Part shown: positions 1,891 through 17,196 of the stretch, one piece after another
Position numbering within the stretch: the stretch's first letter is position 1
Layout: each line of letters opens with the position of its first letter
Source of the DNA: Acidobacteriota bacterium
Lineage (GTDB): Bacteria; Acidobacteriota; Terriglobia; Terriglobales; Acidobacteriaceae
Length of the DNA stretch: 17,196 bases
Assembly: GCA_003224785.1 (NCBI GenBank)
Contig: QHZV01000201.1
Location: forward strand, 5,102 to 22,297
Reading direction: 5' to 3'
Made by a program: the position numbers and the translations under genes
The notes under the pieces: generated by a model
Databases searched by the model: none
What the model was told of the DNA's origin: nothing
What the model saw: the letters and a program-made list of their open reading frames with translations, nothing else

Positions 1891-2347
1891 ATGGCAACAC
1901 CCGGAGCCAGCCTGAATGCCGCGTCACAATCCTCGCTCACGAATTTGGTGGAACAGAAGCTACGTGCAGAACGCATCGTAAGAGTCGGCGCCGGTTGGTT
2001 TGCCATCATTGCTGCGCTTTCGATGATCAATTCCCTGTTGTCCATGAGCGGCGCCGGAATCCGTTTCATCTTTGGCATGGGGATCGCCCAGTTTGTTGAC
2101 GGGCTGGCGCATCAGGCTGGGCAGACAGGGTTCGCCCTCGATCTTGTCATCAACGGATTCGTTGCGGGTATATTCGTGATTTTCTGGAGATTTGCACGTA
2201 AGGGTGAACAGTTTCAAGGACCTCCTAGCCGGGGCATTTCATGCCTATGCGCTGTACCGAATCTACACCGGCATGAGCGGCATTCCAACTCTGCAAAAAT
2301 TTCAACAGGCCCTCGCGCCACCCGGAGCTCCCATTCAGCCGAGGTGA
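1891..2347 (+). pseudogene. Small multi-spanning membrane protein, interrupted by internal deletion/frameshift
   Basis: The ATG at 1891 is preceded by a good Shine-Dalgarno (TGGAGG, about 9 bases upstream). The first frame encodes two to three hydrophobic segments (WFAIIAALSMINSLLSM, FALDLVINGFVAGIFVIFW) up to FARKGEQ near 2212. It then becomes low-complexity and not protein-like. A second frame starting at about 2213 reads FKDLLAGAFHAYALYRIYTG and continues to a stop at 2345-2347, which looks like the true C-terminus. A predicted membrane segment normally found between these two halves appears to be missing, so the likely event is an out-of-frame deletion near 2195-2213. The product is an uncharacterised membrane protein; no function is assigned. 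Confidence 0.6.
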
Positions 2348-2397
2348 GAACCTGGCTGTTGGCTATCGGCTCTTGGCTGTTGGTGAAGAGCAGGTTC
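2348..2397. repeat. Inverted pair enclosing tandem GGCTnTT-type units
   Basis: GAACCTG at 2348-2354 is exactly complementary to CAGGTTC at 2391-2397. Between them lie short tandem units such as GGCTGTTGGCTATCGGCTCT and a further GGCTGTTGG, with a period of about 7-8 bases. The element starts right after the stop of the preceding broken gene and may act as its terminator. Confidence 0.5.
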
Positions 2398-2870
2398 CAC
2401 TCAGGCCTGCCACAGTCGGCTGCAGCGGTTTTTCGAAAGCCGCTGGACAAATAGGCTGATCGCTCAGCTCACGCAAACGAAGCGGAGACTCATCCGGTGT
2501 TCTTAGTACCTGTAGCCAGCGAACCAGCTCATCCAAAGATTCTGGAAATGGGACCCGGTGATCGGCATCAGTCCAAGTATAACGCTTTGCGCTCGCGCTG
2601 AATTCCACCATCACAGATTCTGAGCCTTGGCGAACGATACCGTCCTCCCTCTTCTGCGGATACAGTCTCTTCAACATTTCCACCGCTGTACAGCGCGAAG
2701 CAGACTCGCGGAGAGGCTTGTTGCTCGCGCCAGTCCACGCCGTACGTGCTGCGATAGGAGATCCGCACCAGTATTTCATGCGAATCACGATCCGCCGACT
2801 GTGCGAGGCAGGGCCTGAAGGCCAGTACTAGCAGGATCACTATGGGTACTAGTGGTTTGCTCGATCGCAT
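2363..2870 (-). pseudogene. Secreted hypothetical protein, frameshifted
   Basis: The ATG at 2868-2870 has a clear Shine-Dalgarno, GGAGG, five bases upstream (2875-2879 on the plus strand). The first frame begins with a signal peptide (MRSSKPLVPIVILLVLAFRP, then CLAQS) and continues HEILVRISYRSTYGVDW. The second reverse frame, closing at 2363, carries the more protein-like C-terminal part: GIVRQGSESVMVEF, YTWTDADHRVPFPESLDELV and LRLRELSDQPICPAAFEKPL. The first frame closes at 2568, so neither frame alone gives a full protein. The switch falls somewhere in 2640-2720. I recall similar small exported proteins in Acidobacteria but no function. Whether the frameshift is real or a sequencing error cannot be told here. 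Confidence 0.55.
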
Positions 2871-3028
2871 GTAACCTCCACAGGCCGAAACCGCTCTTCA
2901 GACACGCCTGTTTGTGACCGCTGGTAGCGCGGCTCCGCTCAATTCCAAGAACGCATGACAATCAGAGTCTTGCATAGGATTTCGATTGTTCGGGTCGCGA
3001 TCAGAAAAGGCAAGAGCCAACAGCCGAA

Positions 3029-3370
3029 TTACTTTGCGGCCATTTTCTTGACCATTGCCACCACCAGTTTGCGGTCACTGTCGTTCAGGTTGCCGGAGTA
3101 GCGGCGGATCTGGGTCAGGAAGCGGAGTTCGTCATCGGAGAGCTGGGGAATAGCCTTGGAGCCATTGCTGTTTCCAGGTTCTGAAAAGAAGTGCGAAAGC
3201 GGCAGTTCCATTGCGCCGGCGATCTTTGACAGCGTGTCGAGCGACGGCACCGTATGCCCGTTTTCCACACGCGAAAGATAGCAGCGCAGCAGTCCGGTCC
3301 GCTTTTCAATGTCGCCCTGCGACATCCCCTTTTGCAGCCGGAATGATCGGATTGTTACCCCAATATTCAT
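3029..3370 (-). CDS. XRE-family helix-turn-helix transcriptional regulator
   Basis: A 113-residue DNA-binding protein. An HTH_3/Cro-CI-type domain spans about residues 4-60: IGVTIRSFRLQKGMSQGDIE, RTGLLRCYLSRVENGHTVPS and LDTLSKIAGAMELPLSHFF, with the recognition-helix region around LRCYLSRVENG. The C-terminal tail, DDELRFLTQIRRYSGNLNDS and then DRKLVVAMVKKMA, is a conserved arrangement I associate with a widespread acidobacterial regulator family. The ATG at 3370 is chosen because MNIGVTIRSF matches the usual N-terminus; a longer TTG start at 3439 only adds unrelated sequence. No Shine-Dalgarno is evident in front of it. Its target genes are unknown. Confidence 0.85.
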   Translation of the reverse strand: MNIGVTIRSFRLQKGMSQGDIEKRTGLLRCYLSRVENGHTVPSLDTLSKIAGAMELPLSHFFSEPGNSNGSKAIPQLSDDELRFLTQIRRYSGNLNDSDRKLVVAMVKKMAAK

Positions 3371-3679
3371 TAAAGGAGTCAGGTCGCATGGTAACCAGAG
3401 TAGTACCCGTTGGCAAGAAAAAAGTTTTAATACCTGCAAACATTAGGAACTGCAAATCTTTGCGCGCGGATTTTCAATGATTGATTACTTCAACTGCGCC
3501 GCGGATTTCGCGGATCACGCGGATAACTTCTTTTTCCCTGATCCAAAATGGCTGAAGACGATACCTTCTTTTCTGCGGACTCTGCTCAGTTCTCAACGAA
3601 AGCGGTTAAAAGCTCTAAAAGTTGAGTGCCACTATCCGCGCCATTCGCGGCGCGCTTGAAATGAGAGCAACACGGCGCC
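3371..3679. other. Gene-free spacer holding an inverted-repeat element
   Basis: About 310 bases between the XRE regulator and the hydrolase gene. I see no convincing coding sequence on either strand. It is largely taken up by the GCGGAT-type inverted-repeat element described separately (3496-3653). The part next to 3370 should carry the promoter of the XRE gene, but no clear -35/-10 pair was recognised. Confidence 0.5.
3496..3653. repeat. Intergenic element with inverted GCGCCGCG / GCGGAT arms
   Basis: The left arm (3496-3526) contains GCGCCGCGGATTTCGCGGAT followed by ACGCGGATAA, that is, tandem CGCGGAT units. The right arm (3633-3653), read on the other strand, gives GCGCCGCGAATGGCGCGGAT, closely matching the left arm. 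The roughly 110 bases between them show nothing coding. This is the form of a non-autonomous inverted-repeat element or a large hairpin. A single GCGCGGATCTTCACGGATTT unit recurs at 7485-7504. Confidence 0.5.
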
Positions 3680-4420
3680 CTACTTCTGTAAATGCTGCGC
3701 GAAGAACATAAGAATCTTACTCCACGCATCGGCCGTGTCTTCGGGCTTGTATCCTGCTCCGTTCACCGGATTTTGAAAGCCGTGGCCAGCGTCAGGATAG
3801 ATGGTGATGTCCCCTTTTTTCCCGAGCTTGTCCAGTTCTTCTCCGAACTTCTTTACGTCGTCAGGAGTAATCCCCTGATCGTGTGCGCCGAAGAGACCCA
3901 GGATCGGCGCGTTAATTCTTTTTAGCTCATCCGAGGATGCGGAGACATCGCCGTAGTTGATCACATCAGCGGCGAGGGTCGGTTCTTCTATCGCAAGTTG
4001 AAGCGAATAGCCGCCGCCCCAACACCAGCCGATCGCGCCAATCTTGTCTTTCTTTACGTCCGCGCGGGATTGCAGGTAGGCAAACGCTGCTTGCGCATCA
4101 CGTTTCACGCGGTCGGAAGGCGCCCGCGAGAGTTCGTGCGCCTCATCCCGCGTGGTGGCGACCTTTCCGCGGTAAAAATCAACAGCCAATGCCAAGTAGC
4201 CTTGATCCGCCAGCTTTGAGGCTTGCTCCTTGACCCAGTCGTTGAGCCCCCACCACTCGTGAATGACAATTATGGCCGGGAACGGGCCTTTGCCTTCGGG
4301 CGTGTAGGCGATGGCTTTAACAGTGTCGCCGTCACTCTTAAAGGTGACGTCTTTGGGGGTGGCGGCGAACAACGGAACTGCCATTAGCAGCGCAGTGCAG
4401 AAAATTGTAACGGATGTCAT
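3680..4420 (-). CDS. Exported dienelactone hydrolase family protein
   Basis: A 246-residue alpha/beta hydrolase of the dienelactone hydrolase (carboxymethylenebutenolidase) family. An N-terminal signal peptide (VTIFCTALLMAVPLFAA) indicates export. The catalytic triad can be read: nucleophile Cys133 in GWCWGG, Asp181 in GAHDQG and His213 in AGHGF. The family's conserved glutamate is present in HEWWG (Glu55). Length and order match the family. The ATG at 4418-4420 is preferred over the GTG at 4426 because AGGAG lies five bases before it. The substrate is not predictable; many DLH homologues are general esterases or lactonases. The gene is separated from the upstream GNAT gene by a 100-base spacer filled with an inverted TTAGC-type repeat, which may end transcription between them. 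Confidence 0.9.
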   Translation of the reverse strand: MTSVTIFCTALLMAVPLFAATPKDVTFKSDGDTVKAIAYTPEGKGPFPAIIVIHEWWGLNDWVKEQASKLADQGYLALAVDFYRGKVATTRDEAHELSRAPSDRVKRDAQAAFAYLQSRADVKKDKIGAIGWCWGGGYSLQLAIEEPTLAADVINYGDVSASSDELKRINAPILGLFGAHDQGITPDDVKKFGEELDKLGKKGDITIYPDAGHGFQNPVNGAGYKPEDTADAWSKILMFFAQHLQK

Positions 4421-4435
4421 GTGCACTCCTGGGAA

Positions 4436-4514
4436 AAGCTTTAGCCATTAGCTTTTAGCTCTTTAGCTAGTTCTGAATCGTTTTGGCTAAAGGCTAAGAG
4501 CTAACAGCTAAGAA
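4436..4514. repeat. Intergenic inverted array of TTAGC units
   Basis: The left arm (about 4440-4470) consists of units such as TTAGCCATTAGCTTTTAGCT and CTTTAGC. The right arm (4486-4514) carries the complementary units GGCTAAAGGCTAAGAGCTAA and CAGCTAAGAAC. Each arm is a short tandem array with a period near 8, and the arms are inverted, so a long imperfect hairpin can form. It fills almost the whole gap between the GNAT and hydrolase genes. Confidence 0.65.
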
Positions 4515-4522
4515 CTCGTTTT

Positions 4523-5017
4523 TCACAACTGCAACTCCATATACAGCGCACCCTCAATCGGATTTGCTCGATAAGGCTCAATCTCTTGGAACCCGAGCTG
4601 CCGGTACATCGCGACTGCCGCACGCATCACTGGCTCGACGGTGTCGAGTCGCAGTTTTTTGTATCCGATCTCGCGTGCCTCATGGATGATCCGCTCGGCC
4701 AAAGCTTTGCCCAGACCCTTGCCGCGAAATTGCGGGCGCACGTATAACCGTTTCATCTCACAGACATCGTTCTCGATTTTATGCAGGGCCACGCATCCTG
4801 CGGTCTGGCCGTCGAAGATTGCGAGCAGCAAGCGCCCTCCCGGCGGCGCGTAGTCACCCGGCAACCCCGCAAGTTCTTTATCGAAACTTTGAAAGCACAG
4901 ATCGAAGGTAAGCGATCGCGCATATTCGAGAAAAAGCTCTCGTACTTCAGCGGCTTGCTCCCGTGACTCTACCTGTGTGGCATGCAGGATAGGTTCCCGA
5001 CCATTTGCAATCAGCAT
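4523..5017 (-). CDS. GNAT-family N-acetyltransferase
   Basis: About 164 residues with the GCN5-related acetyltransferase fold. The acetyl-CoA binding motif A is clear: CEMKRLYVRPQFRGKGLGKA, with the Q/R-x-x-G-x-G/A signature as QFRGKGLG, followed by LAERIIHEAREIGYKKLRLD and the motif B region YRQLGFQEIEPY. The acceptor substrate is unknown. The start is taken at the ATG at 5015-5017; a GTG two codons earlier (5023) is equally possible. The start overlaps the end of the upstream membrane-protein gene (stop at 5011-5013, sequence ATGCTGA), which suggests translational coupling and a common transcript. The protein appears complete. Confidence 0.9.
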   Translation of the reverse strand: MLIANGREPILHATQVESREQAAEVRELFLEYARSLTFDLCFQSFDKELAGLPGDYAPPGGRLLLAIFDGQTAGCVALHKIENDVCEMKRLYVRPQFRGKGLGKALAERIIHEAREIGYKKLRLDTVEPVMRAAVAMYRQLGFQEIEPYRANPIEGALYMELQL

Positions 5018-5409
5018 AGACACCGCCCTATGCAGAAGTGACCGGCCACCCCTTCCGGAGAAGCGAAATCAGCGACGAAAGAAACCACAATTCCACCCAC
5101 GCACCACAAAACCAAGTTGAATACTGTTTGAGTATCTGACTTCCTGCCGATAAGCGCACCCAAAATGAACCACTCCACCATCCGGACCGGAGTGTAAATT
5201 GCGATGTACTTCCACAGAAGGTCTTGGCGCTGAGTCGACACCACGAAGAAAATGGCGATACCAAATCCGACGCCGATTGCCAACCGTAGCACACCGAAAC
5301 TCGCAGCTCTTATTAGGCCCGCTGAACTAGCTCGCCAGAGCCTCAACCCGAGCCAACACCAAGCGATGTACGAGATCAGCTTGACCGTGACGTAGAGCAA
5401 AGTTGGCAT
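5011..5409 (-). CDS. Small integral membrane protein, hypothetical
   Basis: A 132-residue hydrophobic protein with about four predicted membrane segments: LLYVTVKLISYIAWCWLGL, FGVLRLAIGVGFGIAIFFVV, AIYTPVRMVEWFILGALIG and VFNLVLWCVGGIVVSFVA. I do not recognise the family. It lies 16 bases after the fabG stop and its own stop overlaps the start of the GNAT gene, so it is most likely part of a fabG-membrane protein-GNAT transcription unit. The ATG at 5407-5409 is the natural start; no strong Shine-Dalgarno is seen. Confidence 0.75.
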   Translation of the reverse strand: MPTLLYVTVKLISYIAWCWLGLRLWRASSAGLIRAASFGVLRLAIGVGFGIAIFFVVSTQRQDLLWKYIAIYTPVRMVEWFILGALIGRKSDTQTVFNLVLWCVGGIVVSFVADFASPEGVAGHFCIGRCLC

Positions 5410-5425
5410 GGCGAGATCTGGCGCA

Positions 5426-6205
5426 CTACCCCATCAGCATACCGCCGTTCACGTTCAGCACGTGTCCGGTGATGTATCCGGCTTCTTCCGAGGCGAGAAA
5501 TGCCACACAGTTGGCAACCTCCTCGGCTGTTCCTACACGACCGAGAGGAATCATTTTGAGAGCGCTTTCTTTCAACTCGGCTGAAAGCTCGGCCGTCATT
5601 GCGGTTTCGATGAATCCTGGTGCAACCGCGTTACAGGTAATGCTTCTTGATCCCACTTCGCGCGCGATTGCCATGGTCAAGCCGATCAGTCCTGCCTTCG
5701 ACGCGGCATAGTTCACCTGTCCCGCCTGGCCCATCTGCCCAAAAATGGAAGTGATGTTGATGATTCGTCCCCAACGCTGACGAAGCATTGAGCTGATCGC
5801 CTGCTGACTGCACAGATAAGCGGAAGTCAGGTTCGTGTTCAGGACTGCATCCCAATCGGCGCGTTTCATCCGCATGAGCAACTGATCGCGCGTGATGCCG
5901 GCGTTGTTCACGAGTATGTCGATTTTACCAAGCTCAGAAATGATGGACTTGAATGTCGTTTTGATCTGGTCTTCGTTATCAACATCTGCTGAAAACGCAC
6001 GAGCCGAGCCCACAGCACCTGGGTTTGGGGGCACGGGCGTTCCCGCCTGTGCAGAAGTTATTTCTAGCGCAACCTCTTCCAGCTTCTGCTGATTGCGCGC
6101 GACCAGCGCCACACTGGCGCCGCAGGCCGCCAGCTTCAGCGCACACGCGCGCCCAATACCCTGTGATGCTCCGGTAACCACGGCCACCCTTCCGCTGAGT
6201 TTCAT
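5426..6205 (-). CDS. fabG: 3-oxoacyl-[acyl-carrier-protein] reductase FabG-like
   Basis: A short-chain dehydrogenase/reductase of 259 residues that, by its FabG-type motifs, reduces 3-ketoacyl-ACP with NADPH in type II fatty acid synthesis. Seen in order: nucleotide-binding TGASQGIG (11-18), NNAG (100-103), Asn125, catalytic Ser153 (NITSIFG), Tyr166 and Lys170 (YAASK), APGFIETAMT, and the C-terminus GYITGHVLNVNGGMLMG. ITRDQLLMRMK is characteristic of FabG rather than of other SDRs. The protein is about 15 residues longer than E. coli FabG (244); the extra residues AQAGTPVPPNPGAV (around 53-66) are encoded by a palindromic insertion. It heads a compact group with the membrane protein and GNAT gene. 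Other SDR substrates remain possible, because acidobacteria carry many FabG paralogues. Confidence 0.9.
   Translation of the reverse strand: MKLSGRVAVVTGASQGIGRACALKLAACGASVALVARNQQKLEEVALEITSAQAGTPVPPNPGAVGSARAFSADVDNEDQIKTTFKSIISELGKIDILVNNAGITRDQLLMRMKRADWDAVLNTNLTSAYLCSQQAISSMLRQRWGRIINITSIFGQMGQAGQVNYAASKAGLIGLTMAIAREVGSRSITCNAVAPGFIETAMTAELSAELKESALKMIPLGRVGTAEEVANCVAFLASEEAGYITGHVLNVNGGMLMG
6031..6052. repeat. Palindromic element inside fabG
   Basis: A nine-base stem pairs GCACGGGCG (6031-6039) with CGCCTGTGC (6044-6052), with one G-U/T pair and a four-base loop. Read on the gene strand it encodes QAGTPVP, part of a roughly 14-residue segment missing from ordinary FabG. The frame is kept on both sides. 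Confidence 0.7.
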
Positions 6206-6274
6206 AGGGTTTTCTTTGCGATGTTTGCGAGTCCTTTGTACACTTTGCGGTTAAAAAGCTTTTGAGAAGCGAAA

Positions 6275-7407
6275 TTATAACTGTATGGGCGCCGAAGCGT
6301 TCTCTTCCACTGGTACGCGGATCTCGTCACGAAAGAGATATCGCAGGATTGGGGGAGCCAATAGCGTGGTCACAATCGTCATCAGCACAACTACTCCATA
6401 GGCGGGTTGACTCAAAATCGCGGACTGCAATCCCACGAGTGCGACGATCAATGCCACTTCGCCGCGCGGAGTCATGCCAATTCCAACCTGAAAGACGGTC
6501 GTCCAGCCTTCGCGTAGGAGGGGTAAGCCGCATCCGATTAGTTTCGAGATCACCGCCAGCAACGAAATAACGAGGGCTGCGGTCAGAAGATTGCCGGTGA
6601 GCAGCCGGACATTAAATCGCGAGCCGATATCAAAGAAAAAGAATGGCGCGAGGAAAGCTGTGATTCCGCCCACGCGCGGCGGCAGGTTCCATTGAGGCGC
6701 GTAATCGGCAAACATGAGCCCGGCAAAGAACGCCCCAATGATGGCCGCCATTCCAATCTTCACCGACAGCCATGAGAAGAAGAGACAAATAGCCAGCGCG
6801 ACCACCAGGGTCGAACTCTGTGTGGAGAATTTCGCCAGGCGCGGATGCAACTGCCGGACGATGTTGGGGGCTACAAACATCATGAACAAGGCGAACGCGA
6901 CTGCTTCACCCGTGAGCACACCCAAATGAACCCAACGCACGCCCGCCCCGGAGGCCGAGCCGGCTACGACTGCCAGCACAACCATTGCCAGAATGTCGTC
7001 GAAAACCGCAGCCGCGAGAATGATTTTTGCCGTGCGGGTTGAGAGCACGTTCATGTCGGCCAGCACTCGCGCCGTGATGCCGACACTTGTAGCGACCATC
7101 GCTGCGGCGACGAAGGTTGCCTCAATGTTGGTGTCGCCACGCAGCTTGAGGTATGCAAAGCCGAGAACAAAGGGCGCTGCCACTCCAGCGATTGAAACCA
7201 CAAGCGCCTTTCGACTGACTTGTATAAGTTCGTACGGGCTGGTCTCAAGAGTGCATAGGGACCAAGAGCAACTCCGGCCAGGATTTCGCCGGGAACCGCG
7301 GGCAGGTTGAGCCACTCGAACATTTCGCCCAGCAATTTTGCCGCCACGAAAATCACGAATAGATACAGCAGCAACTGCTCAGCCGGATTGGGTATGTTGC
7401 TCTGCAT
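6275..7407 (-). pseudogene. CPA2-type cation/proton antiporter, interrupted by internal deletion/frameshift
   Basis: A monovalent cation:proton antiporter of the KefB/NapA (CPA2) type. The N-terminal part, from the ATG at 7407, reads QLLLYLFVIFVAAKLLGEMF and then LPAVPGEILAGVALGPYAL, the usual first helices. The rest is in another frame: ETSPYELIQVSRKALVVSIA, VAAAMVATSVGITARVLADM, LAAAVFDDILAMVVLAVVAG (with the family's ion-binding-region Asp pair) and IGMTPRGEVALIVALVGLQS. Between GPYAL and LETSPYEL the family normally has roughly 25 more residues (a helix ending in LLFTVGLETS), so an out-of-frame deletion is inferred at about 7244-7254. If the frameshift is real, the transporter is dead; otherwise it is a complete gene with an assembly error. 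Confidence 0.8.
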
Positions 7408-7484
7408 GATCTACAGGCAGGATATGGAAAGCCTGAGCTGCCCGCAACAAAACTCGAGAGCTGCTGCCCTGAGATTGAAAGCAG

Positions 7485-7505
7485 GCGCGGATCTTCACGG
7501 ATTTA
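7485..7505. repeat. Single GCGGAT-type repeat unit
   Basis: GCGCGGATCTTCACGGATTT resembles the CGCGGAT units of the element at 3496-3653. It lies in the 140-base gap between the DUF2071 remnant and the antiporter start. Only one arm is seen here. Confidence 0.35.
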
Positions 7506-7548
7506 CTTTAGCTTTCAGAGATGACTGACGATAACTTGAGTCAGCGGC

Positions 7549-8263
7549 TCAGGCCTTTTTCAGTGGCCAGATAAGGACTTCCAGCTTTTTTGAAAAATGC
7601 AATCGCGGAGCGATCGCGGGCAGCTCAATTCCAGCGGCGGAGGCCATGGTGTTCACGACTATTTCTGCTTCAGCATCCTGCAGGGGCCATTGCGCATGAT
7701 GAATTTCCGCCCGAAAGACCTTGCCGCGGAAAACCGTATATAGACTCGCGAAGCCGTACCGGTCCAACTGGACCGTATTTAGCGCGAAACTTCGTGCTTG
7801 AATCGCGGAAACAATCATATTGAATCGAAGCGTCCGTGTATGGACGGCCCTGTAGGCTGGCCTCGCTCACTTTCATCAGCGAGTAGAAGTACGGCAGGTG
7901 ATAAGTCGTTCTTGCCCCCCACACCGCAGCGCGGCTTGCTGCATCCAGACTAAAGAAAAACACTCCCGGCTTGCCGCCATAGTTCACATAAGTACGGACG
8001 TTCAACTCAGGGAAACTCGATAGCGCAGGAATCGGCGGCAGCCAGCGGCCGCGCACGCCAGTCATATGAAAGGGTGTAACCGCGATCCAGCATTGGCCAT
8101 TGAAAGTATCGAGCGGCAAAATCACGGGAATAAGAGGTCGCAGACTCTCCGGTGCGATTGGCCAATGTGCAAACAGCAGATCGTTCCATGTCTGCTGCAT
8201 GATCCACGGTGCGGAAGGTAAGGGCCAGGGACGAGGGTCGGTGGATGTGAGCGCTGGATGCAC
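7549..8263 (-). pseudogene. DUF2071 (YqjF-like) protein, interrupted by internal deletion/frameshift
   Basis: The N-terminal two thirds, in the frame opening at the GTG at 8263, read RPWPLPSAPWIMQQTWNDLL, FAHWPIAPESLRPLIPVILP, WIAVTPFHMTGVRGRWLPPI, ELNVRTYVNYGGKPGVFFFS and LPYFYSLMKVS, the recognised DUF2071 pattern. The C-terminal part lies in a second frame: SLYTVFRGKVFRAEIHHAQW, PLQDAEAEIVVNTMASAAGI and LEVLIWPLKKA, stopping at 7549. The family segment that normally bridges GPVGPV and LYTV (around a conserved FLTERY stretch) is missing, placing a junction near 7740-7758. The function of DUF2071 is unknown. Its start is 183 bases from the divergent DUF374 gene. Confidence 0.75.
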
Positions 8264-8446
8264 TAAGCAGGATAACTCGCCGTCTCCCGAACCTAGATTA
8301 AACGTTGAGTGGTTGGAAAAGAGTTCAGTCCTCTACTACTACTTGCAAGGCAAGTACCACGAACTCCAAACCTCCGATTGACAGTAACGGTTTCATTTTC
8401 ATGTAGCGTCCCATGTTTTATGAAATCCAAAAGCTACAATTAGATT

Positions 8447-9193
8447 GTGAGCGCAGTCACTACTCCCACCACACCACCAGTTGACAAGCCCTGGAGGAAA
8501 TTCACCTTCAAACAGCGCCTCCTTCTCTGGCTCATCACCTGGGCTGGATATCTCATCGTCCGCGTTCTGGGCCCAACGATCCGCTTCGCTGTTTCCTGGG
8601 AAGACGGTGCGCCAAAGAGTCTCGCCGAGCGTCCGTTCATTTATTCCTTCTGGCACAACTGCATGATCCCGGCGATGTATTGGTGCCGCGATCTGAATGT
8701 CCGAGTGATGAGCAGCGACAGCTTTGATGGCGAATACACCGGGCGGATCATGCAGAAATTCGGTTTTGTGAAAGTTCGGGGATCGAGTTCGAAAGGCGCG
8801 GTGCGTGCGCTGCTCGGAATGCGCCGCGAAATCGAGCAAGGCTGGACCGCCGCCTTCACCATTGATGGCCCCAAAGGTCCTCGCTACGTCGCCAAGCCGG
8901 GGCCGGTCGTGCTTTCCCGCAGCACGGGGGCGCCCATGGTGGTCTTCCACATCGCCCTTGACCGCGCCTGGGTGCTCAGTACCTGGGACGGAGCGATGAT
9001 CCCGAAACCGTTCTGCCGTGCTCTAATGCGGATCAGCACTAAAATTCCGGTTTCGCGAGACGGCGGCGACGAACAATATCTTGCCCAACTACAAACAGCA
9101 TTAGATCGTGTACGGATCTTCGCTGAAGAAAATATCGCAAAGGCAGGGACGGCGGAGTTTCCTTACGGACGGAGCAACCGAGACGAGCACTAG
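8447..9193 (+). CDS. DUF374 lysophospholipid acyltransferase family protein
   Basis: A 248-residue inner-membrane protein. An N-terminal hydrophobic segment (LLLWLITWAGYLIVRVLG) is followed by the DUF374 motifs: YSFWHNCMIPA, MSSDSFDGEYTGRIMQKFGF, VRGSSSKGAVRALLGMR and FTIDGPKGPRYVAKPGPVVL. DUF374 belongs to the LPLAT superfamily and is related to acyltransferases of lipid A and phospholipid synthesis; the acyl donor and acceptor are not known. The frame is intact and the length normal. The GTG at 8447 is the first in-frame start; no clear Shine-Dalgarno precedes it. A TTGACA at 8378-8383 could be a -35 box but lacks a convincing -10. Confidence 0.88.
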   Translation: MSAVTTPTTPPVDKPWRKFTFKQRLLLWLITWAGYLIVRVLGPTIRFAVSWEDGAPKSLAERPFIYSFWHNCMIPAMYWCRDLNVRVMSSDSFDGEYTGRIMQKFGFVKVRGSSSKGAVRALLGMRREIEQGWTAAFTIDGPKGPRYVAKPGPVVLSRSTGAPMVVFHIALDRAWVLSTWDGAMIPKPFCRALMRISTKIPVSRDGGDEQYLAQLQTALDRVRIFAEENIAKAGTAEFPYGRSNRDEH

Positions 9194-9654: not shown

Positions 9655-9841
9655 TTCACTTAAAAGTGTGCTCGCACGCACGCGGAAGATTGTTGGGCAG
9701 ATTACAAAGTATCTGAATCGGTGCGAAGTAAACATACTGTTAAATATGTACGGCCTTATGGGGTTTTTCCCTTGTATTTCAGCCTGATAACAAGACCGCC
9801 CTTGCATCGTAGAGACGTGGATGCCGGTCAGGAGGTGGTCA

Positions 9842-10573
9842 TTGCGAACAGCAAGAACATGGCGCCAACCACTTCGTCCGGGCGAGCGTACCAGTGGCAC
9901 GGGAAAACCTGTGTCGAATGCAATTCTCTTGTCACTTCCGGACGCCGAGTACCGGCGCGTCCGCCCGCATTTGCAATTTGTAAATTTGCCGCATCATGAA
10001 AATCTTCATGAGCCCGGAAGAAAGCTAAAATTTGCATACTTTTTGAACACAGGAATGATCTCTTTAATTCTGGTCGGACGGGACGGCAAAAGTGTTGAAA
10101 TTGGCGTAACCGGCAAGGAAGGCTTCACACCGATTCCCCTGGCAGTCGGTTTGAAAAGAAGTCCGCATCGGGCCATCGTCCAGGTTGCGGGCGAAGGGTT
10201 CAGGCTCAGTGTGGCAGCCCTCGACAAGCTCCTGCCAACCAGTCCCCTGTTGCAGGCGACGCTCAATCGTTATGCGGTCGTGCAGGGGCTGCAAGTTGGA
10301 CAAACGGCCGGCTTTGATTCCGGCTCGCTTGAAATTACCCACGACTTTCTCGCCAGTATGCTCGGTACCGACCGCCCGAGCGTGAGCCTGACTGCAAATT
10401 CGCTGCAAAAGAAAGGGATCATCGAATACATGTACGGTGGGGTAAAGATTCTTAACCGCAAGAAACTGGAACGGTCCGCATGTGAGTGTTATAAGGTGAT
10501 TCACCAATTCGATGGCGAATTCGCACTGCAGTTGCATCAGCGGAATGGTAAGTCATTTAGGCGGAATGACTAG
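9842..10573 (+). CDS. Crp/Fnr family transcriptional regulator with an apparent internal loss
   Basis: An effector-binding domain (LPHHENLHEPGRKLKFAYFL, VEIGVTGKEGFTPIPLAVGL) is followed by the DNA-binding part (EITHDFLASMLGTDRPSVSL, LQKKGIIEYMYGGVKILNRK, KLERSACECY), matching a Crp/Fnr group common in acidobacteria. The DRPSVS stretch is the recognition helix. Relatives have about 20-25 residues (CNRLHDIEQRLARWLL-like, the end of the dimerisation helix and first HTH helix) between GQTA and DSGSL; here these are joined directly at about 10306-10314, still in frame. The start is uncertain. An AGGAGG at 9830-9835 sits six bases before an in-frame TTG at 9842, chosen here; an ATG at 9821 has no such site, and a GTG at 9911 (MSNAILLSLPD) fits the family N-terminus. 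The signal sensed is unknown. Confidence 0.8.
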   Translation: MRTARTWRQPLRPGERTSGTGKPVSNAILLSLPDAEYRRVRPHLQFVNLPHHENLHEPGRKLKFAYFLNTGMISLILVGRDGKSVEIGVTGKEGFTPIPLAVGLKRSPHRAIVQVAGEGFRLSVAALDKLLPTSPLLQATLNRYAVVQGLQVGQTAGFDSGSLEITHDFLASMLGTDRPSVSLTANSLQKKGIIEYMYGGVKILNRKKLERSACECYKVIHQFDGEFALQLHQRNGKSFRRND

Positions 10574-10791
10574 GGCTGCGGCGGTTTTCGAGATCTCGGC
10601 TTCTTGTTTGCCTTAGCTTCCAGTGCGGTCAAAGTATTAACCTGCGCCTCCAAAGATTCTCGTGCCAAGCCAATGTGCTCGGCGAGAGTCTTCTGAAGTT
10701 CTTTCAGCACCCCTTTTGCTTCTCCATCCGTTTGAGCGGCTTTCGTCTGGGAACAGAGTTGCTCAATCCTAATGTCAGTGTGACGCGGCAC
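10570..10791 (-). CDS. Small hypothetical protein, helical
   Basis: A 73-residue charged, mostly helical protein (IRIEQLCSQTKAAQTDGEAK, LKELQKTLAEHIGLARESLE, AQVNTLTALEAK) with a basic tail (KKPRSRKPPQP). The pattern is protein-like and I recall similar short acidobacterial proteins, but know no function. The start is the GTG at 10789-10791; no clear ribosome-binding site is visible and the true start might lie elsewhere. It ends convergently with the Crp/Fnr gene, overlapping by four bases. Confidence 0.55.
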   Translation of the reverse strand: MPRHTDIRIEQLCSQTKAAQTDGEAKGVLKELQKTLAEHIGLARESLEAQVNTLTALEAKANKKPRSRKPPQP

Positions 10792-10910
10792 TCATCTGTA
10801 AGGTATCCGACAATGTCGCGGACCTAAATACAGTGAATCCTGTACTCACTTAGCCGAAAGTTCTAGTCCGGTCGCAATGCTAGAATTTCAGTTCCCTTAT
10901 CCGAGGTCGA

Positions 10911-11772
10911 ATGTCCGCAAGCATCCTGGATGGTAATAAGATCGCTGCTGAAATCCGCGCCGAAGCTGCGGCTGAAGTTCGCGCTTTGGCAGCGGCTGGG
11001 ACGCGTCCCGGGCTGGCTGTTGTGCTGGTCGGCAACAATCCGGCGTCGGAAGTTTATGTTCGCGGCAAAGTCAAGGCCTGCGAGGAGACCGGCATTTTCA
11101 GCGAAAAGCACACCCCTTCTGCAAACGCTTCAACTGAGGAATTGTTGGAACTTGTGGCGGATTTAAACCGGCGCGATGAAATTGACGGCATCCTGGTGCA
11201 GCTGCCTCTTCCCCCGCAAGTCGATTCCAAGAAAGTTTTGCTGGCGGTTGATCCCGCGAAAGACGTGGATGGATTTCATCCCACCAACGTCGGGTTCCTT
11301 TCCACGCAGAGACCTGGCCTCGTTACGCAGCGATATTGTCGGCAAGCCCATGGCAATGCTGCTGTTGAATGGCAACGCAACCGTGACGGTTTGCCATTCC
11401 AAGACGCATGATTTGCCTTCCGTCTGCCGGCGCGCTGATATTCTGATTGCCGCAATCGGGCGCGCGGGCATGATCACGAACGATTTTGTTCGACCGGGCG
11501 CGACAGTGATTGATGTCGGCATGAATCGCGTCACGGATCCTGCAGAGGTTTCTCGCCTGTTTGCGGGAAACGCTAAACGCGAGGAGACTTTGCGCAGTAA
11601 AGGTGCAGTGCTCGTTGGCGATGTGCATCCCGAAGTCGCGGAAGTTGCTGGCGCGATCACGCCGGTTCCTGGCGGCGTGGGGCCGCTCACGATCGCAATG
11701 TTGATGTCGAACACGGTCAAAGCCGCGAAGATGCGGAGAGGGCGGAGAGGGAGCGAGCGCGCCGGGGCCTAA
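10911..11772 (+). pseudogene. folD: Bifunctional methylenetetrahydrofolate dehydrogenase/cyclohydrolase FolD, internal deletion
   Basis: FolD interconverts 5,10-methylene- and 10-formyl-tetrahydrofolate using NADP. The first frame, from the ATG at 10911, carries the catalytic domain: ILDGNKIAAEIRAE, LAVVLVGNNPASEVYVRGK (with the YxxxK catalytic lysine), [13 protein letters not shown] and [17 protein letters not shown]. After RPGLV (about 11324) the reading must move to another frame from 11326: [71 protein letters not shown] and [14 protein letters not shown]. By family comparison about 27 residues (PCTP... to ...VVxG) are gone, equal to a deletion near 80 bases. coaE follows after a repeat-filled gap. 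A weak GAGG precedes the start. Confidence 0.9.
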
Positions 11773-11779
11773 GAGCTCA

Positions 11780-11873
11780 TTCACCACGGGGGAACAGAGG
11801 CACAGGAAGCAATTGCAGTGAAATTTTGAATTGATTTAAATGTTTCTCTGTGTCCCTGTGTCTCTCTGGTGAA
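11780..11873. repeat. Intergenic inverted element with CACAGAG-type units
   Basis: TTCACCA at 11780-11786 is exactly complementary to TGGTGAA at 11867-11873. Next to each end, inside, are related units (AACAGAGGCACAGG on the left; CTCTGTGTCCCTGTGTCTCT on the right) in opposite orientation. Similar TTCACCACAGAGACACAGAG repeats are known to me from intergenic regions of several bacterial phyla. It sits between folD and coaE. Confidence 0.65.
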
Positions 11874-11895
11874 ATAATCCCCTGCGGGAGTGCTC

Positions 11896-12482
11896 ATGCT
11901 TAAAGTCGGACTGACGGGTGGCATCGCATTGACGCCGACAGCATTGGCCACGAACTTATGGCTCCGGGCGAGCCGGTGTATGACGAAATCGCCAAGCGTT
12001 TCGGCACGGATATTCTAAATTCCGACAAGACCATCAATCGCGCCAAGTTGGCAGAGCTGGCCTTCGACCAGCGACGCCCGCGGATTTACGAGCTCAACAG
12101 TCTCCTGCATCCCGGAATTATTCAGCGATACGAAAAGCGCATGGAAGAAATCGCTGCCGGCGAGCCGGATGCAATTGTCATGCTAGAGGCAGCTCTGTTA
12201 CTCGAAGCCGGTTTGCGCCGCCGTTTCGATCGCATCATTGTGGTGAGCTGCAAGCCGCAGCAGCGAATCGAGCGATGGGAAAAGCGACTGCAGGTAGATA
12301 CCGATGCGGCCCGCCGTGAAGTCACGCGCAGAATGATGGCTCAGGCGCCGGACGAAGCCAAGATCCAAGCCGCAGACTACGTTATTGACAACAGCGGCTC
12401 AATGGAGGAAACGCGAAAGCAGGTCGAAAAAGTATTCGCCACTCTCCGAGAACAGACGAAAATAGTAGCCTCGAGAAATTAG
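11896..12482 (+). pseudogene. coaE: Dephospho-CoA kinase CoaE, lacking its P-loop through internal deletion
   Basis: CoaE phosphorylates dephospho-CoA in the last step of coenzyme A synthesis. The ATG at 11896 begins MLKVGLTGGIA, the exact family N-terminus. The next codons should be SGKST (Walker A) and a helix up to IDAD. Instead the sequence jumps at 11926-11930 to IDADSIGHELMAPGEPVYDE in another frame, continuing INRAKLAELAFDQRRPRIYE, LNSLLHPGI, MLEAALLLEAGLRRRFDRII and ERWEKRLQVDTDAARREVTR to the stop at 12482. Matching the family gives about 52 missing bases. The remaining frame has a Met (ATG 11958), but without the P-loop the product could not bind ATP. CoaE is normally essential, so either another copy exists or the deletion is not real. 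Confidence 0.9.
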
Positions 12483-12496
12483 AGTCAGCTGCGAAC

Positions 12497-12582
12497 AGCC
12501 ATCAGCCGTCAATAAACCGTAACATCCATCGTGGCTCCCGTTTTTCATTCCCAGAAGGGTCTTTCACTGATGGCTGATGGCT
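12497..12582. repeat. Inverted AGCCATCAGCC pair downstream of coaE
   Basis: AGCCATCAGCC (12497-12507) is exactly complementary to GGCTGATGGCT (12572-12582), and both are flanked by further similar units (GTCA; TGATGGCTGATGGCT). About 64 bases lie between the arms. The element begins 15 bases after the coaE stop and could serve as a terminator, or be a mobile repeat. Confidence 0.6.
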
Positions 12583-12632
12583 AGTAGCTCACTTTGCGAC
12601 TCTTCCACCCGGCGCGTAACATCTAAACCAAC

Positions 12633-13874
12633 ATGCAGGTATCCACCGCAGTCGCCGAGCTCAGACCGAAACTCGCATTCAGCGAGATCATGAGCTTTGC
12701 GATTGAGACCTTTTGCAGCAACAAAGTCCGGTTCATGCTGACTGGCCTCGGTATGGTGATCGGCACCGCCTCATTGATTCTGGTAGTGACGATTGGAATG
12801 ACCGGCAAGCAATATGTGCTCAACCAAATCCAGGGAATCGGCGCCAATCTGATCTACGCCGAATACGAGGGCGGCGCCCAGAGAATAACCAATACCGCGC
12901 CAGATCCGCTTACGGTTGACGACATGACCGCCGCGCACGAGCAAGTGTCGGGCATTGTTGCTGCATCTCCAGTCGTGCCTTTAGCGGAGCGGATCCCTGT
13001 CGGCAATGGCAAAGAGCGGGACATCCAGATACTCGGCGTATATCCCGAATATCGCGCAGTGCGTAACTTGGTTGTGGCGTCAGGCCGGTTTTTCGATCAG
13101 CAAGAGGAGCAATCGCACACCAAAGTCGGCCTGGTTACGGAAAAAATGGCGCAGGAAATCTACGGTTCCGCCGAAGCTGCCGTCGGCAAGGTGGTTAAGT
13201 TGAGCGGCTTGCCATTCACGATCATCGGGACTTTTCGCGAACGGGTGGACACATTCGGTCAGTCGGAAGTCACCACCAATACATTTCTCATTCCTTACAA
13301 CGTAGCTCGATATTTCACCGACACGCCGACCGTAAAACTGATCTATTTCTCAGTCTCGGATCCCTCGATGGTCGAGTCCGTAACCGAGCAGGTCAAGCGG
13401 GTCATCCAGTCGCGACATCGCGCCGAGTCGGTGTACAACATCACCAATTTGACTCAACTCGTAAGCGTGGCCGAGAAGACGGCAAACGCGCTGACTCTCG
13501 TCCTTCTGGCGGTCGCGGCAGTAGTTTTATTGGTTAGCGGAATCGGAATTATGAATATCATGCTGGCCACCGTGAGCGCGCGAATTCGCGAGATTGGAAT
13601 TCGAAAAGCGCTCGGCGCGACCAATCGCGAAATCCGCTTCCAATTCCTGTCAGAAGCGATCCTGATTTCCGTAGGCGGAGGATTAATCGGAGTTGTGGTT
13701 GGGCTCGCGGTGCCCTACTCGGTGCGTTTTCTTACGGAGTATCGTGTGCCGATTTCCGGCTTGTCTGCCATTATCGCTATTGTGGTTTCTTCATTGGTGG
13801 GAGTTCTCTTCGGCACGGTCCCAGCGGTACGGGCGGCCCAAATGGATCCTGTAGAGAGCTTGCGGTATGAATAA
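12633..13874 (+). CDS. MacB/FtsX-type ABC transporter permease
   Basis: A 413-residue inner-membrane protein with the MacB permease plan. A first helix at about residues 34-56 (VRFMLTGLGMVIGTASLILV) is followed by a large periplasmic MacB_PCD-like domain (about 60-275). Three further helices form the FtsX domain: LTLVLLAVAAVVLLVSGIGI, LSEAILISVGGGLIGVVVGL and LSAIIAIVVSSLVGVLFGTV. The cytoplasmic loop SARIREIGIRKALGATNREI and the C-terminus PAVRAAQMDPVESLRYE are hallmarks. Such permeases work with an ATP-binding subunit and often an outer-membrane channel and adaptor to export peptides, lipoproteins or antibiotics. No ATPase gene is next to it here, so the partner is encoded elsewhere. The frame is intact; the start at 12633 has no strong Shine-Dalgarno. 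Confidence 0.92.
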   Translation: MQVSTAVAELRPKLAFSEIMSFAIETFCSNKVRFMLTGLGMVIGTASLILVVTIGMTGKQYVLNQIQGIGANLIYAEYEGGAQRITNTAPDPLTVDDMTAAHEQVSGIVAASPVVPLAERIPVGNGKERDIQILGVYPEYRAVRNLVVASGRFFDQQEEQSHTKVGLVTEKMAQEIYGSAEAAVGKVVKLSGLPFTIIGTFRERVDTFGQSEVTTNTFLIPYNVARYFTDTPTVKLIYFSVSDPSMVESVTEQVKRVIQSRHRAESVYNITNLTQLVSVAEKTANALTLVLLAVAAVVLLVSGIGIMNIMLATVSARIREIGIRKALGATNREIRFQFLSEAILISVGGGLIGVVVGLAVPYSVRFLTEYRVPISGLSAIIAIVVSSLVGVLFGTVPAVRAAQMDPVESLRYE

Positions 13875-13919
13875 GGTCGGTCGGACCTGGATTGTGCAGA
13901 CGACTATCAAAACAAGAAC

Positions 13920-13939
13920 GCCGGGCTGGTTGGCCCGGC
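13920..13939 (+). terminator. Possible terminator hairpin after the permease gene
   Basis: GCCGGGC (13920-13926) and GCCCGGC (13933-13939) form a perfect seven-base stem with a six-base loop, 45 bases after the permease stop. Only a weak run of T follows (CAACTTCCTTG), so intrinsic termination is possible but not certain. Confidence 0.4.
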
Positions 13940-14045
13940 AACTTCCTTGTCATTACATCTGTGGGGAGAGACTCGTTTACGTCTGAGTCCCCGCGGATCT
14001 CAAAATTAGCGACCAGCTTCACAGAGGCTTTGCTCGCTAGAAGCT

Positions 14046-14276
14046 CTACATCACCAGCGCTAAGCCTTCCAATTCCTTCTCTAAGACCGGCAGTGCACAA
14101 CCTGCCATTTCCACGCGGCTCACCGCGTCATACGCCGCCTGTGGCGACACCCCATAGCCCCGGCCCATCAGGAAAACCTGAACCAACTCCGCCGCTTCGC
14201 GAGAGTCAGCCAGACCACCTTGCAGCAGGTCGTTCCGTAGAGCCGTTAATTCCGTCGCCGAAAATCGCTCTCTCAT
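14046..14276 (-). CDS. Small hypothetical protein
   Basis: A 76-residue protein: MRERFSATELTALRNDLLQG, LADSREAAELVQVFLMGRGY, VSPQAAYDAVSRVEMAG and VLEKELEGLALVM. It appears all-helical and soluble, and I do not know a function. The start at ATG 14274-14276 is strongly supported by GGAGGTGA about five bases before it; the frame is open further upstream, but that part is not protein-like. It stands alone between the permease gene (convergent) and the Trm112-like gene (same strand, about 320 bases upstream). Confidence 0.75.
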   Translation of the reverse strand: MRERFSATELTALRNDLLQGGLADSREAAELVQVFLMGRGYGVSPQAAYDAVSRVEMAGCALPVLEKELEGLALVM

Positions 14277-14597
14277 CGTTCTCACCTCCGACCCTGACTG
14301 CTCATAACCATTAGACTCAGCAGCTATTACTTTTGTTGCATGCAATTTTTCTGCCGAACTTAGGATCATCTCGTATATTCGGCCGTGAAAGTCTGCACAA
14401 TCCTTTAAACCCTTCAAACTCAGCGAAGTTGTTAATGGATATCGGCCAATCGACGAGCGGGATGAGCACTCGGCAGGTGACCTTTGGAGTCTCAAGACTG
14501 ACACAAAGTGTCAGTTTGGGACGCGACCGTGTATTTGATTTGAGAATGGTGCTTGGGGCGGTCGGCTCTGATCAGTCGGGTCTTTGGGGATCGCTAT
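14277..14597. other. Gene-free spacer with one palindrome
   Basis: About 320 bases between the 76-residue gene and the Trm112-like gene. Open frames on the plus strand here read as shadows. The only structure noted is the perfect palindrome at 14497-14515. The region next to 14276 should contain the small gene's promoter. Confidence 0.4.
14497..14515. promoter_or_regulatory. Operator-like palindrome
   Basis: ACTGACAC and GTGTCAGT are perfect inverted arms of eight bases around AAA. Symmetry and length suit a dimeric regulator's binding site, although a small hairpin is equally possible. It lies about 220 bases upstream of the 76-residue gene (minus strand). The regulator is unknown. Confidence 0.35.
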
Positions 14598-14768
14598 CTA
14601 GGTCGGATCGGTTGTTGCTTCGTCTATCAGGAGGATGGGAATGTTGTCGCGAACCGGATACACGCGCTTACACTCTCCACACTTCAGGCTCTCACCGTTC
14701 TCTTTCTGAACGAGAGGCTTCTTGCAGGCGGGACAAACCAGAATATCGAGCAGATCCTGGGGAATCAT
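14598..14768 (-). CDS. Trm112-family zinc-binding small protein
   Basis: A 56-residue protein starting at ATG 14766-14768: MIPQDLLDILVCPACKKPLV, then KCGECKRVYPVRDNIPILL and DEATTDPT. Two CxxC pairs (CPAC at 12-15 and CGEC at 30-33) form a zinc-ribbon-like site, and the DLLDILVCPACK start and YPVRDNIPILL end are the classic Trm112/YcaR (UPF0434) signature. Eukaryotic and archaeal Trm112 activates methyltransferases; the bacterial role is unclear. The short size makes it easy to miss. No strong Shine-Dalgarno is visible before the ATG. Confidence 0.88.
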   Translation of the reverse strand: MIPQDLLDILVCPACKKPLVQKENGESLKCGECKRVYPVRDNIPILLIDEATTDPT

Positions 14769-14947
14769 AAGCAATTATTTTACGTCAAACCAGAATGGTC
14801 AGCGAATCGTACTGTGAGCCTTCTCGATGGATACCCATCTCTGGCGTTCTCATCATTAGGTGCTGATGACGGGGAACAACTGAATCCCGGCAGTCTATTC
14901 CGTTGGCCGGTTTTGAAATGATTACCGAAATTACAAGGAGCCTAAAG

Positions 14948-15358
14948 ATGGAACGCGCGCGGCAAATCGTTCTGGCACTCGCAGGCCTGTTGTATTTCGC
15001 TCTGCTTTATCCGCTATGTAGTGACTTGTGGCATTCCCATTGGCTTGTCGACATGAACAGCAACGACTGCGAGCCAATGTTCTTGAGTTTTTATGTCGGG
15101 CTCGGATTATTTCTGTTGCTCGCCGTGAGAAAACCGTCAGAGCATCGCTCCCTCATTGCCTTCGCCGGATGGTCAAGCCTACTCCATGCCTCGGTAATGG
15201 CAATCGAAACGGTGGAAGCCTGGAGCCACGGAGTTCACCGAGATTACAACGATGTGGTAATTGCCGGCATAGTTGGAGCGGTACTGCTGGCGATCACACC
15301 AACAAAACGGCGGGAGGCAGCTACTGCGCCATCTGCGGAGGTTCAGAAGCAAGGCTAA
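14948..15358 (+). CDS. Small membrane protein, DUF6632-like
   Basis: A 136-residue protein with four hydrophobic segments: IVLALAGLLYFALLYPL, MFLSFYVGLGLFLLLAV, LIAFAGWSSLLHASVMAI and DVVIAGIVGAVLLAIT. The pattern RKPSEHRSLIAFAGWSSLLH is one I recall from a small acidobacterial/proteobacterial membrane family (DUF6632). Function unknown. The ATG at 14948 is chosen because AAGGAG lies seven bases upstream; a frame start at 14903 lacks this. After its stop there is no further supported gene before the riboswitch. Confidence 0.75.
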   Translation: MERARQIVLALAGLLYFALLYPLCSDLWHSHWLVDMNSNDCEPMFLSFYVGLGLFLLLAVRKPSEHRSLIAFAGWSSLLHASVMAIETVEAWSHGVHRDYNDVVIAGIVGAVLLAITPTKRREAATAPSAEVQKQG

Positions 15359-15572
15359 GGGCGAACCAGCTTATTGCCGACGCGGCCATCACGAGCGCCC
15401 TGCTCGACTGCCTGCTGCGCCAGCGACACTTGCGATTCGCGGAATTGGGGAAGCGAACTGACTTGACCACACCGGAGGCCGCGGGTAGAAGAATTTAGTC
15501 TCAGAAGCTACTTCCATTTGGCCTGGCTTTGAACTGATGATTGAGGTCGATTCTCTATGACGAAAACTATGT

Positions 15573-15602
15573 TTGACCAGGAGGGCTTGGCCGCATTACA
15601 TT
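15573..15602 (+). promoter_or_regulatory. Possible sigma-70 promoter for the riboswitch-receptor unit
   Basis: TTGACC at 15573-15578 and TACATT at 15597-15602 are separated by 18 bases and end about 20 bases before the first riboswitch helix. Position and order fit, but the -10 box matches only four of six consensus bases. Confidence 0.3.
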
Positions 15603-15621
15603 CATAAAGCTTTTGAAATAG

Positions 15622-15833
15622 GTTCGCGCGTCCTCCTCACTCGAGGAAGACAGGGAAGCGGGTGCAATTCCCGCGCTGCCGCGCAACTGTAAGCGAGGAC
15701 ACAGCACCGGGCCACTGGATTTTTCCGGGAAGGCCTGAGGCAAAGCCGAATGAGGGACGGCATGAACGGGCGAGGACGCCCGTTCTTCCATGATCTCCCA
15801 TTCTTACTCGCGAGCCAGGAGACCGGCGCGAAC
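15622..15833 (+). ncRNA. Cobalamin riboswitch
   Basis: The conserved core can be read in order: GGGAAGCGGGTGCAATTCCC near 15653-15672, GCTGCCGCGCAACTGTAAGC (the adenosylcobalamin-riboswitch signature) near 15674-15693, GCCACTGG, GGGAAGGCCTGAGG, and the 3' box AGCCAGGAGACCGGC at 15813-15827. The closing helix P1 pairs GTTCGCGC (15622-15629) with GCGCGAAC (15826-15833). A variable arm, GAACGGGCG (15764-15772) with CGCCCGTTC (15777-15785), is a perfect nine-base hairpin. No U-rich terminator follows. A weak pairing between CCTT and AAGG of the ribosome-binding site just downstream would allow control of translation, which is inference. It precedes a TonB-dependent receptor gene. Confidence 0.93.
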
Positions 15834-15871
15834 TTCATACACCAACCCCTTTCGCGAGTGAAGGAGGAGTG

Positions 15872-17196
15872 ATGCGTTCCTGCTGCCGATTTCTTGCCGT
15901 AATCTCTTTGTCGATTTCAGCCCTGGCTTCCGACCTCACCGTCAGAGTCCTGGATCCACGTTCCGCGGCCGTTCCTGGCGCACAAGTGGAGCTTTTCAGC
16001 GCCGGCTCTGATCGCGCTACCGCCATCTCAAACACAACTGGACAAGGCACCGTGCATGATTCGCTGAACAATCGCGTGCCGTCGTAAACGAAGCTGAAGT
16101 CACGATCACCCTGACCCTGGCGGTGGCGACGGAAACTGTGACCGTTTCCGCAACCCGCACCGCTGCCCGCACCGATGAGTCTGGGGCCTCAATTGAATCG
16201 TTAAGCGGCGCGGAACTGGATACAATCCGCCCGGTCGCAGCCAACGATGCCCTACGCTTCCTGCCGGGAGCCATTGTTGCCAGCAGCGGCCAGCGCGGGG
16301 GCCTGGGCTCATTGTTTGTGCGCGGCGGCGACTCCCGTTACAACAAGGTGATCGTGGATGGAGTCCCAGTTAATGACCCCGGCGGCACATTCGATTTCGG
16401 CACTCTTCCGCTCTTCGAAGAAGACCGTGTCGAATTTCTGCGCGGTGCGCAAAGCACTCTTTATGGCTCGGACGCGATGACTAGCGTTGTGCAGACGTGG
16501 AGCCGTATTGGCAATACGCCAGTTCCCGAGCTGCGTTTCGGAGCCGATGCCGGAAACTATGGAACCGAGAACGGATATGCCTCGCTTGCCGGGGCCAACG
16601 GCCGATTCGATTACAACGTATTTGGGAACCAGTTCAACACATCTGGCTCCGGCCCGAATGACGATTACTCGAATTCGCTCGAAGGCGCAAACCTCGGCGC
16701 GAAGTTGAATGATTGGGCTTCCCTGCGTCTGCGGATGCGTCATGACAACAGCGTGAGCGGCGTGCAAAATGAGTGGAACTTCAACGGTACAAACGTCCTC
16801 ACAATGCACGGGACAACCTACACAGTTCTTCCCGATCTCGACCAGCGGGCCCGGCAAAATAATTTTCTGAGTAGCCTTGAGCTGGCGATCAACGGTCCAT
16901 CACGCCTGCAACAACGGATTGCGGGCTTCGATTACACGTTGCACCGCACAAATATTGATGCCATTCGCCAGAACACCAGGCAGTCTCCTTTTGGCGAGGA
17001 AGACTTTCAGTTCCACAACGTTAACAATTACAACCGCGGCGGATTTGAATATCAAGCCAATTACGCCGAGCGCAGTTGGGCTATGAGCACCGCGGGCTAC
17101 GAATTTGAGGACGAGAACGGCGCTACTGGAAACCCTCTTTTCCCGAGCCGTGGAGTGCGGCGCAATCACGCGCTCTTCGGGCAGCAGATGCTCAGT
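15872..17196 (+). pseudogene. btuB: TonB-dependent vitamin B12-type receptor, 5' frameshift, 3' end outside window
   Basis: An outer-membrane receptor placed directly under a cobalamin riboswitch, hence a cobalamin transporter candidate. ATG 15872 follows AAGGAGG by four bases. The first frame gives a signal peptide and the start of a carboxypeptidase-regulatory-like domain (DLTVRVLDPRSAAVPGAQVE, LFSAGSDRATAISNTTGQGT), then stops at 16085. The second frame opens at 16060 (FAEQSRAVVNEAEVTITL) and runs without stop to the window end. It contains the TonB-box-like ETVTVSATRT, a plug domain (NDALRFLPGAIVASSGQRGG, LFVRGGDSRYNKVIVDGVPV, RVEFLRGAQSTLYGSDAM) and the first barrel strands. About 20 residues of the N-terminal domain seem lost at 16053-16060. 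As with its neighbours this may be an assembly error. About 1.3 kb of the gene is seen; the full receptor would be longer. Confidence 0.85.

Follow-up and report, generated by a model that had tools for sequence, protein, structure and literature searches.

We analysed a stretch of 17,196 nucleotides from an Acidobacteriota bacterium (hereafter the window), in which eight protein-coding genes, folD and coaE among them, each lack a short internal piece. The window comprises bases 5102-22297 of contig C96 in a metagenome-assembled genome (MAG) of 2.61 Mb and 490 contigs that is 65.7% complete. Its nearest named protein matches come from MAGs of Acidobacteria, Terriglobia and Terriglobales (protein identity at most 71%, among the best 80 loci). 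We searched 40 relatives, seven of which (G001 to G007) belong to the same genus; G003 and G005 are the least fragmented of these, one with about 20 contigs and the other with about 140. Missing lengths and collinear flanks were determined from chained BLASTN matches between the window and the same-genus relatives, and frame changes were judged by protein-level alignments to relatives.

Interrupted genes in the window

A preliminary description of this DNA, made from its letters, had named seven genes with frame-changing losses and a Crp/Fnr-type gene with an in-frame loss. The relatives' alignments bear out all eight. The window is shorter than the same-genus genomes at each junction, with a mean loss of 62.5 bp (range 38-86), and the reading frame is shifted at every junction except the Crp/Fnr-type one:

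2205-2214 (about 2211), plus strand: blunt join in a membrane-protein gene (about 1891-2344); 56 bp lost, frame shift (frames 1 and 2)
2675-2680 (about 2678), minus strand: blunt join in a secreted-protein gene (about 2255-2873); 86 bp lost, frame shift
7249-7250, minus strand: join in a cation:proton antiporter gene (6275-7407); 76 bp lost, frame shift (frames -1 and -3)
7743-7748 (about 7744), minus strand: join in a DUF2071 gene (7549-8263); 38 bp lost, frame shift (frames -3 and -1)
10313-10328, plus strand: join in a Crp/Fnr-type regulator gene; 63 bp lost, in frame
11320-11326 (about 11324), plus strand: join in folD (10911-11772); 80 bp lost, frame shift
11927-11929 (about 11928), plus strand: join in coaE (start near 11896); 52 bp lost, P-loop cut, frame shift
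16048-16060 (about 16055), plus strand: join in a TonB-dependent receptor (BtuB-like) gene (15869 onward); 49 bp lost, frame shift

Relatives whose matches chain across one junction mostly agree to the base. The three that align on both sides of 2211 (G001, G002, G004) all give 56 bp, the four at 7249 (G003, G005, G006, G007) all give 76 bp, and six of six give 80 bp in folD. The lengths at 2678, 10313, 11928 and 16055 depend on G004. It is the only source at the first three of these. At 2678 the protein-level frame change is seen in one relative, in a messy alignment; at 10313 a single frame runs through the junction in the protein alignment; and at 11928 the frame change is shown by the DNA alignment together with the cut P-loop, the protein alignment having given an antisense frame only. 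At 16055 the loss is 49 bp against G004 and 64, 58 and 58 bp (by hand) against G003, G005 and G006, the same value modulo 3, and protein alignment to all four genomes places the gene in frames 2 and 1. The DUF2071 value was read by hand from protein alignments to G003, G005 and G007; a loss of about 14 bp, obtained from net distances, was dropped in its favour because the window carries extra codons in this gene. The folD and coaE values agree with the sizes first estimated from the window's letters (about 80 and 52 bases), and in the relatives the folD, coaE and BtuB-like genes each carry the segment that the window lacks.

Domain matches were compared with several of these junctions. The antiporter match to PF00999 begins only at profile position 59, the DUF2071 match to PF09844 is broken at position 141 of 212, the PF13545 match of the Crp/Fnr-type gene starts at position 20, and the PF01121 match of coaE sits in the downstream frame.

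Three further length differences without N, absent from the preliminary description, lie in the window: about 3371 (27 bp; G003 only, with five relatives disagreeing), about 6262 (46 bp; G003 only) and about 13887 (47 bp; G005 only). These may be natural indels. On the same contig, outside the window, there are joins at contig positions 2786 (a single N at 2787, 63 bp lost) and 4396, and a gap of 193 N closes just before window base 1.

Unmarked joins and N runs across the assembly

Are such losses confined to this contig? We compared eight contigs of the assembly (C200 and C445 over their first 20 kb), of which 121 kb are matched by one or more relatives, and recorded every place without N at which a relative is 20-130 bp longer. 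There are 38 such differences. In 16 of them at least two relatives agree and none contradict; these well-supported joins have lost 24-80 bp (mean 48.6) and are spread over six of the eight contigs, namely the window's own and five of the seven others. By this criterion no well-supported join was found in C468 or C9.

Rates were then obtained under a single criterion, applied in each genome to the loci that had been retrieved. This genome has 12 well-supported joins without N in 77.3 kb (0.155 per kb), while the two best-assembled congeners, G003 and G005, have none in 141.5 kb (63.9 and 77.6 kb). The five other congeners range from 0.026 to 0.084 per kb:

G004: 2 joins in 78.3 kb
G002: 3 joins in 35.9 kb
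G001: 2 joins in 37.3 kb
G007: 1 join in 25.7 kb
G006: 1 join in 15.4 kb

The losses in G002 are 113, 98 and about 82 bp (L049:2968, L048:6400, L047:7831). G001 also has a gap of 7 N (L055:7136-7142) that is about 105 bp too short for the interval in five genomes, G000 included.

Marked gaps occur in the scaffolds of this assembly as well, written as N runs of irregular length (1 to 193). N runs were sought in 14 fetched contigs and C200, and 16 of them could be set against the corresponding interval in relatives (two N runs in C487 and one in C3 were excluded). Fifteen of the 16 are too short, by a mean of 42 bp over the whole set (standard deviation (SD) 30; spread -11 to +91). For example, a 65-N run corresponds to 120 bp in five of five relatives (net +55), a 29-N run to 88 bp and a 190-N run to 281-284 bp (four of four each), a 48-N run to 57 bp (four of four, by hand), and a single N to 64 bp in the one relative available. 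These values required choices among disagreeing relatives, and we therefore added a stricter subset in which the relatives agree; there, six of seven gaps are too short, with a mean of 36 bp (SD 35).

The choices were as follows. Five gaps are measured from one relative each (C96:2787, C445:7514, C200:1046, C2:7225, C38:6322). For the 193-N gap, G003 and G004 were used, and G001, G002 and G005, with much longer intervals (+172 to +582), were excluded. At C445:6646 we used G004 (+88); G007 gives +49 and G006 +34. The values at C445:7514 and C200:6217 do not come from the flank method, which ran across a second join. At C468:8362, G003, G004 and G005 were used, and G001 (+76), G002 (+69), G006 (-11) and G007 (-10) were excluded as poorly anchored. 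At C468:14184, G004 (+14) and G005 (+17) were used; G001 (-46) was excluded, as were, for poor anchoring, G002 (+25), G003 (+7), G006 (-13) and G007 (-35).

These comparisons lead us to believe, with few reservations, that the missing pieces are an assembly artefact in which the scaffolder took gaps to be smaller than they are and set contigs end to end without N. The population would have been thinly covered and its short contigs ordered into scaffolds by paired reads, the gap sizes coming out about 40 bp too small on average, with a wide spread (-11 to +91). A positive estimate would be written as an N run, usually too short; an estimate at zero or below would leave the contigs abutted, with no N between them (in one case with a lone N), and the intervening sequence would be dropped. 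A gap of a few dozen bases, cut down by roughly as much, would thus vanish. We infer that one scaffolding step lies behind both kinds of defect and that the underlying breaks are ordinary coverage gaps; the unmarked joins seem to form the low end of a single, noisy process of gap sizing. The suggestion in the preliminary description of a "collapsed or mis-joined assembly" thus holds in its second part, mis-joining being supported by the relatives and the short N gaps. Collapse is not supported, given that no direct repeats beyond chance are found at the 24 junctions examined.

Intact homologs and the sequence at the junctions

Both folD and coaE are generally essential. In the window, the P-loop of coaE is interrupted directly after GGIA, and such a gene should not yield a working kinase. 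folD is found at a single place in the assembly, split over two frames. When its C-terminal fragment is used as a query, 24 of the 120 matches listed, out of 8,000 that were scored, have 96-99% identity at 69-75% query coverage. Of these proteins, 22 are 313 amino acids long (P0046 has 303 and P0009 has 168), and in the three compared in detail (P0001, P0003, P0014; 313 amino acids each) the residues missing from the window are present. P0001 aligns to the window's FolD pieces as residues 1-138 (98%) and 166-313 (99%), in different frames, and the part absent from the window lies between residues 138 and 166. Intact near-identical FolD proteins are thus known, which may come from other samples. 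Likewise, both antiporter pieces of the window align to a relative, P0121, which has 402 amino acids and is 94% identical to the C-terminal one.

Could the losses be real? The preliminary description had raised an unusual deletion process. By our measurements it would have to remove pieces of 24-86 bp throughout the genome. The segments are indeed absent from the assembly, and the junctions are sharp and fall in many genes. However, such a process would break folD and coaE, cutting the CoaE P-loop; near-identical FolD proteins are intact; and the N runs of these scaffolds fall short by about as much, an effect that biology would not produce. We give this explanation practically no weight. Just as improbable is a lineage-specific, sequence-independent excision of 24-86 bp in a subset of genome copies that the assembly happened to catch.

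Deletions mediated by microhomology or replication slippage are also short internal losses with clean flanks, and in this they resemble what is seen here. They differ in that the junctions show no microhomology above chance, the N gaps share the offset, and the rate is hard to square with function. The junction sequences were examined in 24 hand-picked cases among the 38 differences, comprising 15 of the 16 best-supported joins and nine others, among them C468:13397, which two relatives contradict. The joins are blunt. The number of ambiguous bases averages 1.67, compared with 1.87 in 3,680 simulated random deletions; the maximum overlap is 5 bp, and overlaps of at least 3 bp make up 29% of the observed and 25% of the simulated junctions. 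The ends of the 24 lost segments carry no direct repeats beyond chance, and the junction alignments contain no shared motif, in agreement with what had been noted from the window's letters. Nor are the segments themselves unusual: their guanine-cytosine (GC) content is 0.569, compared with 0.568 in the flanks (higher in 11 of 24), and they do not fold unusually under RNA folding parameters. GC-rich or hairpin-prone segments were accordingly dropped as a cause of the losses at these 24.

The same data bear on whether short repeats, tandem or direct, were collapsed by a de Bruijn graph, which would produce clean losses within genes and no N. A junction outside the statistic (C445, about 7627-7630) has an ambiguity of 7 bp, the largest seen against G004, which would fit such a collapse. 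With overlap at chance level and ordinary GC and folding in the 24 examined, however, neither repeat collapse nor microhomology-driven loss has acted at these junctions; we regard collapse, which would have required direct repeats of k-mer size beside the segments, as refuted for them and as a negligible prospect in general. Read pairs merged in error or gaps wrongly closed by a filling step, in place of the scaffolder itself, are better candidates, although still unlikely ones. Either would give joins without N and with bases lost, and overlaps of up to 5 bp exist at some junctions. False overlaps from merging should nevertheless exceed chance, which is not seen, and both would leave the too-short N runs unexplained.

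Several observations weigh against scaffolding as the source of the losses. A 91-N run corresponds to 80 bp in seven of seven relatives and is thus 11 bp too long. Some other gaps are only 7-31 bp short, so that the offset is noisy and the joins with 76-86 bp lost need its upper range; it is also conceivable that the N runs do not all share one origin. Some such joins are present in further drafts of the genus, and G002 with 0.084 per kb is to be set beside 0.155 here. Of the 38 differences, 13 are seen in one relative or lack agreement, and nine are contradicted by another relative. The support comes from comparison with congeners and not from reads.

Some of the listed differences, in particular among the contradicted ones, are probably true indels. 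As an account of the whole, ordinary gene decay or strain-specific indels seem to us very improbable: the pieces on both sides of the junction stay open over their aligned lengths in the antiporter, DUF2071, FolD, CoaE and BtuB-like genes, generally essential genes are affected, and the rate exceeds that of every congener compared. The case for underestimated gaps is built on the relatives, the short N runs and the intact near-identical genes on record.

Related errors have been described. PMC4864936 describes a commonly used naive procedure by which the longer scaffold edges are consistently estimated too short, the read pairs being drawn from a truncated distribution; it names Sahlin et al. 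(2012) as the source for this bias and calls the underestimation milder than reported earlier. Negative gaps and under-predicted gap sizes in scaffolds are also treated in PMC3504050. In both, as proposed here, paired reads place contigs next to each other and the gap estimate falls below the true distance. The negative gaps validated in the accessible part of PMC3504050 are contig ends that need trimming, unlike the present joins, in which bases are lost and the evidence comes from congeners instead of reads; the bias in PMC4864936 differs in concerning longer edges and in its milder degree. Closer in setting is PMC7111523, which reports that wrong proteins enter databases when local errors and scaffold gaps of metagenome assemblies are left uncorrected; as here, local scaffold errors give incomplete or wrong proteins. 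The errors listed in the available portion of PMC7111523 include the opposite one (N inserted despite an overlap), consensus without perfect read support and errors of repeat number, none of which is exactly a blunt join without N and with bases lost. In the literature searched, no account of precisely this failure was found; there, nothing appeared on MAG scaffolding errors with frameshifts, and joins without N came up only in work on the cow genome.

The finding is an ordinary one and changes nothing in biology. Its value is as a warning about hidden assembly error: scaffold joins without N are invisible in a FASTA file, yet in this window they break roughly one gene per two kilobases. An apparent pseudogene, a split gene, an absent domain or a low marker completeness is not trustworthy in a MAG of this kind. 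A simple test for such joins, which requires no reads, is to set the length of N runs against the true gap in congeners.

Other features of the window

A 1,038-base contig in ENA encodes a protein of 290 amino acids (P0192) that is 100% identical to the antiporter (window 6275-7315) over 65% of the query. Its N-terminus looks unrelated, and the contig may be chimeric.

The window also contains several recurring stretches. At 4436-4522 lies an intergenic, hairpin-forming element of 87 bases (fold z-score -2.8). The window has 22 non-self matches in its own genome, and 14 of them land on this element, which resembles a repetitive extragenic palindromic (REP)-type repeat. Two other repeats, at 1358-1403 (three matches elsewhere in the genome) and 6025-6056 (one match), are inside open frames, presumably those of a selenide, water dikinase-like gene and a short-chain dehydrogenase-like gene, respectively. 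The reading frame seems to continue through both, and each can fold into a hairpin (z-scores -1.7 and -2.5). Finally, a stretch at 6208-6265, just upstream of the dehydrogenase-like gene, recurs in C38 and C177 and forms no hairpin.

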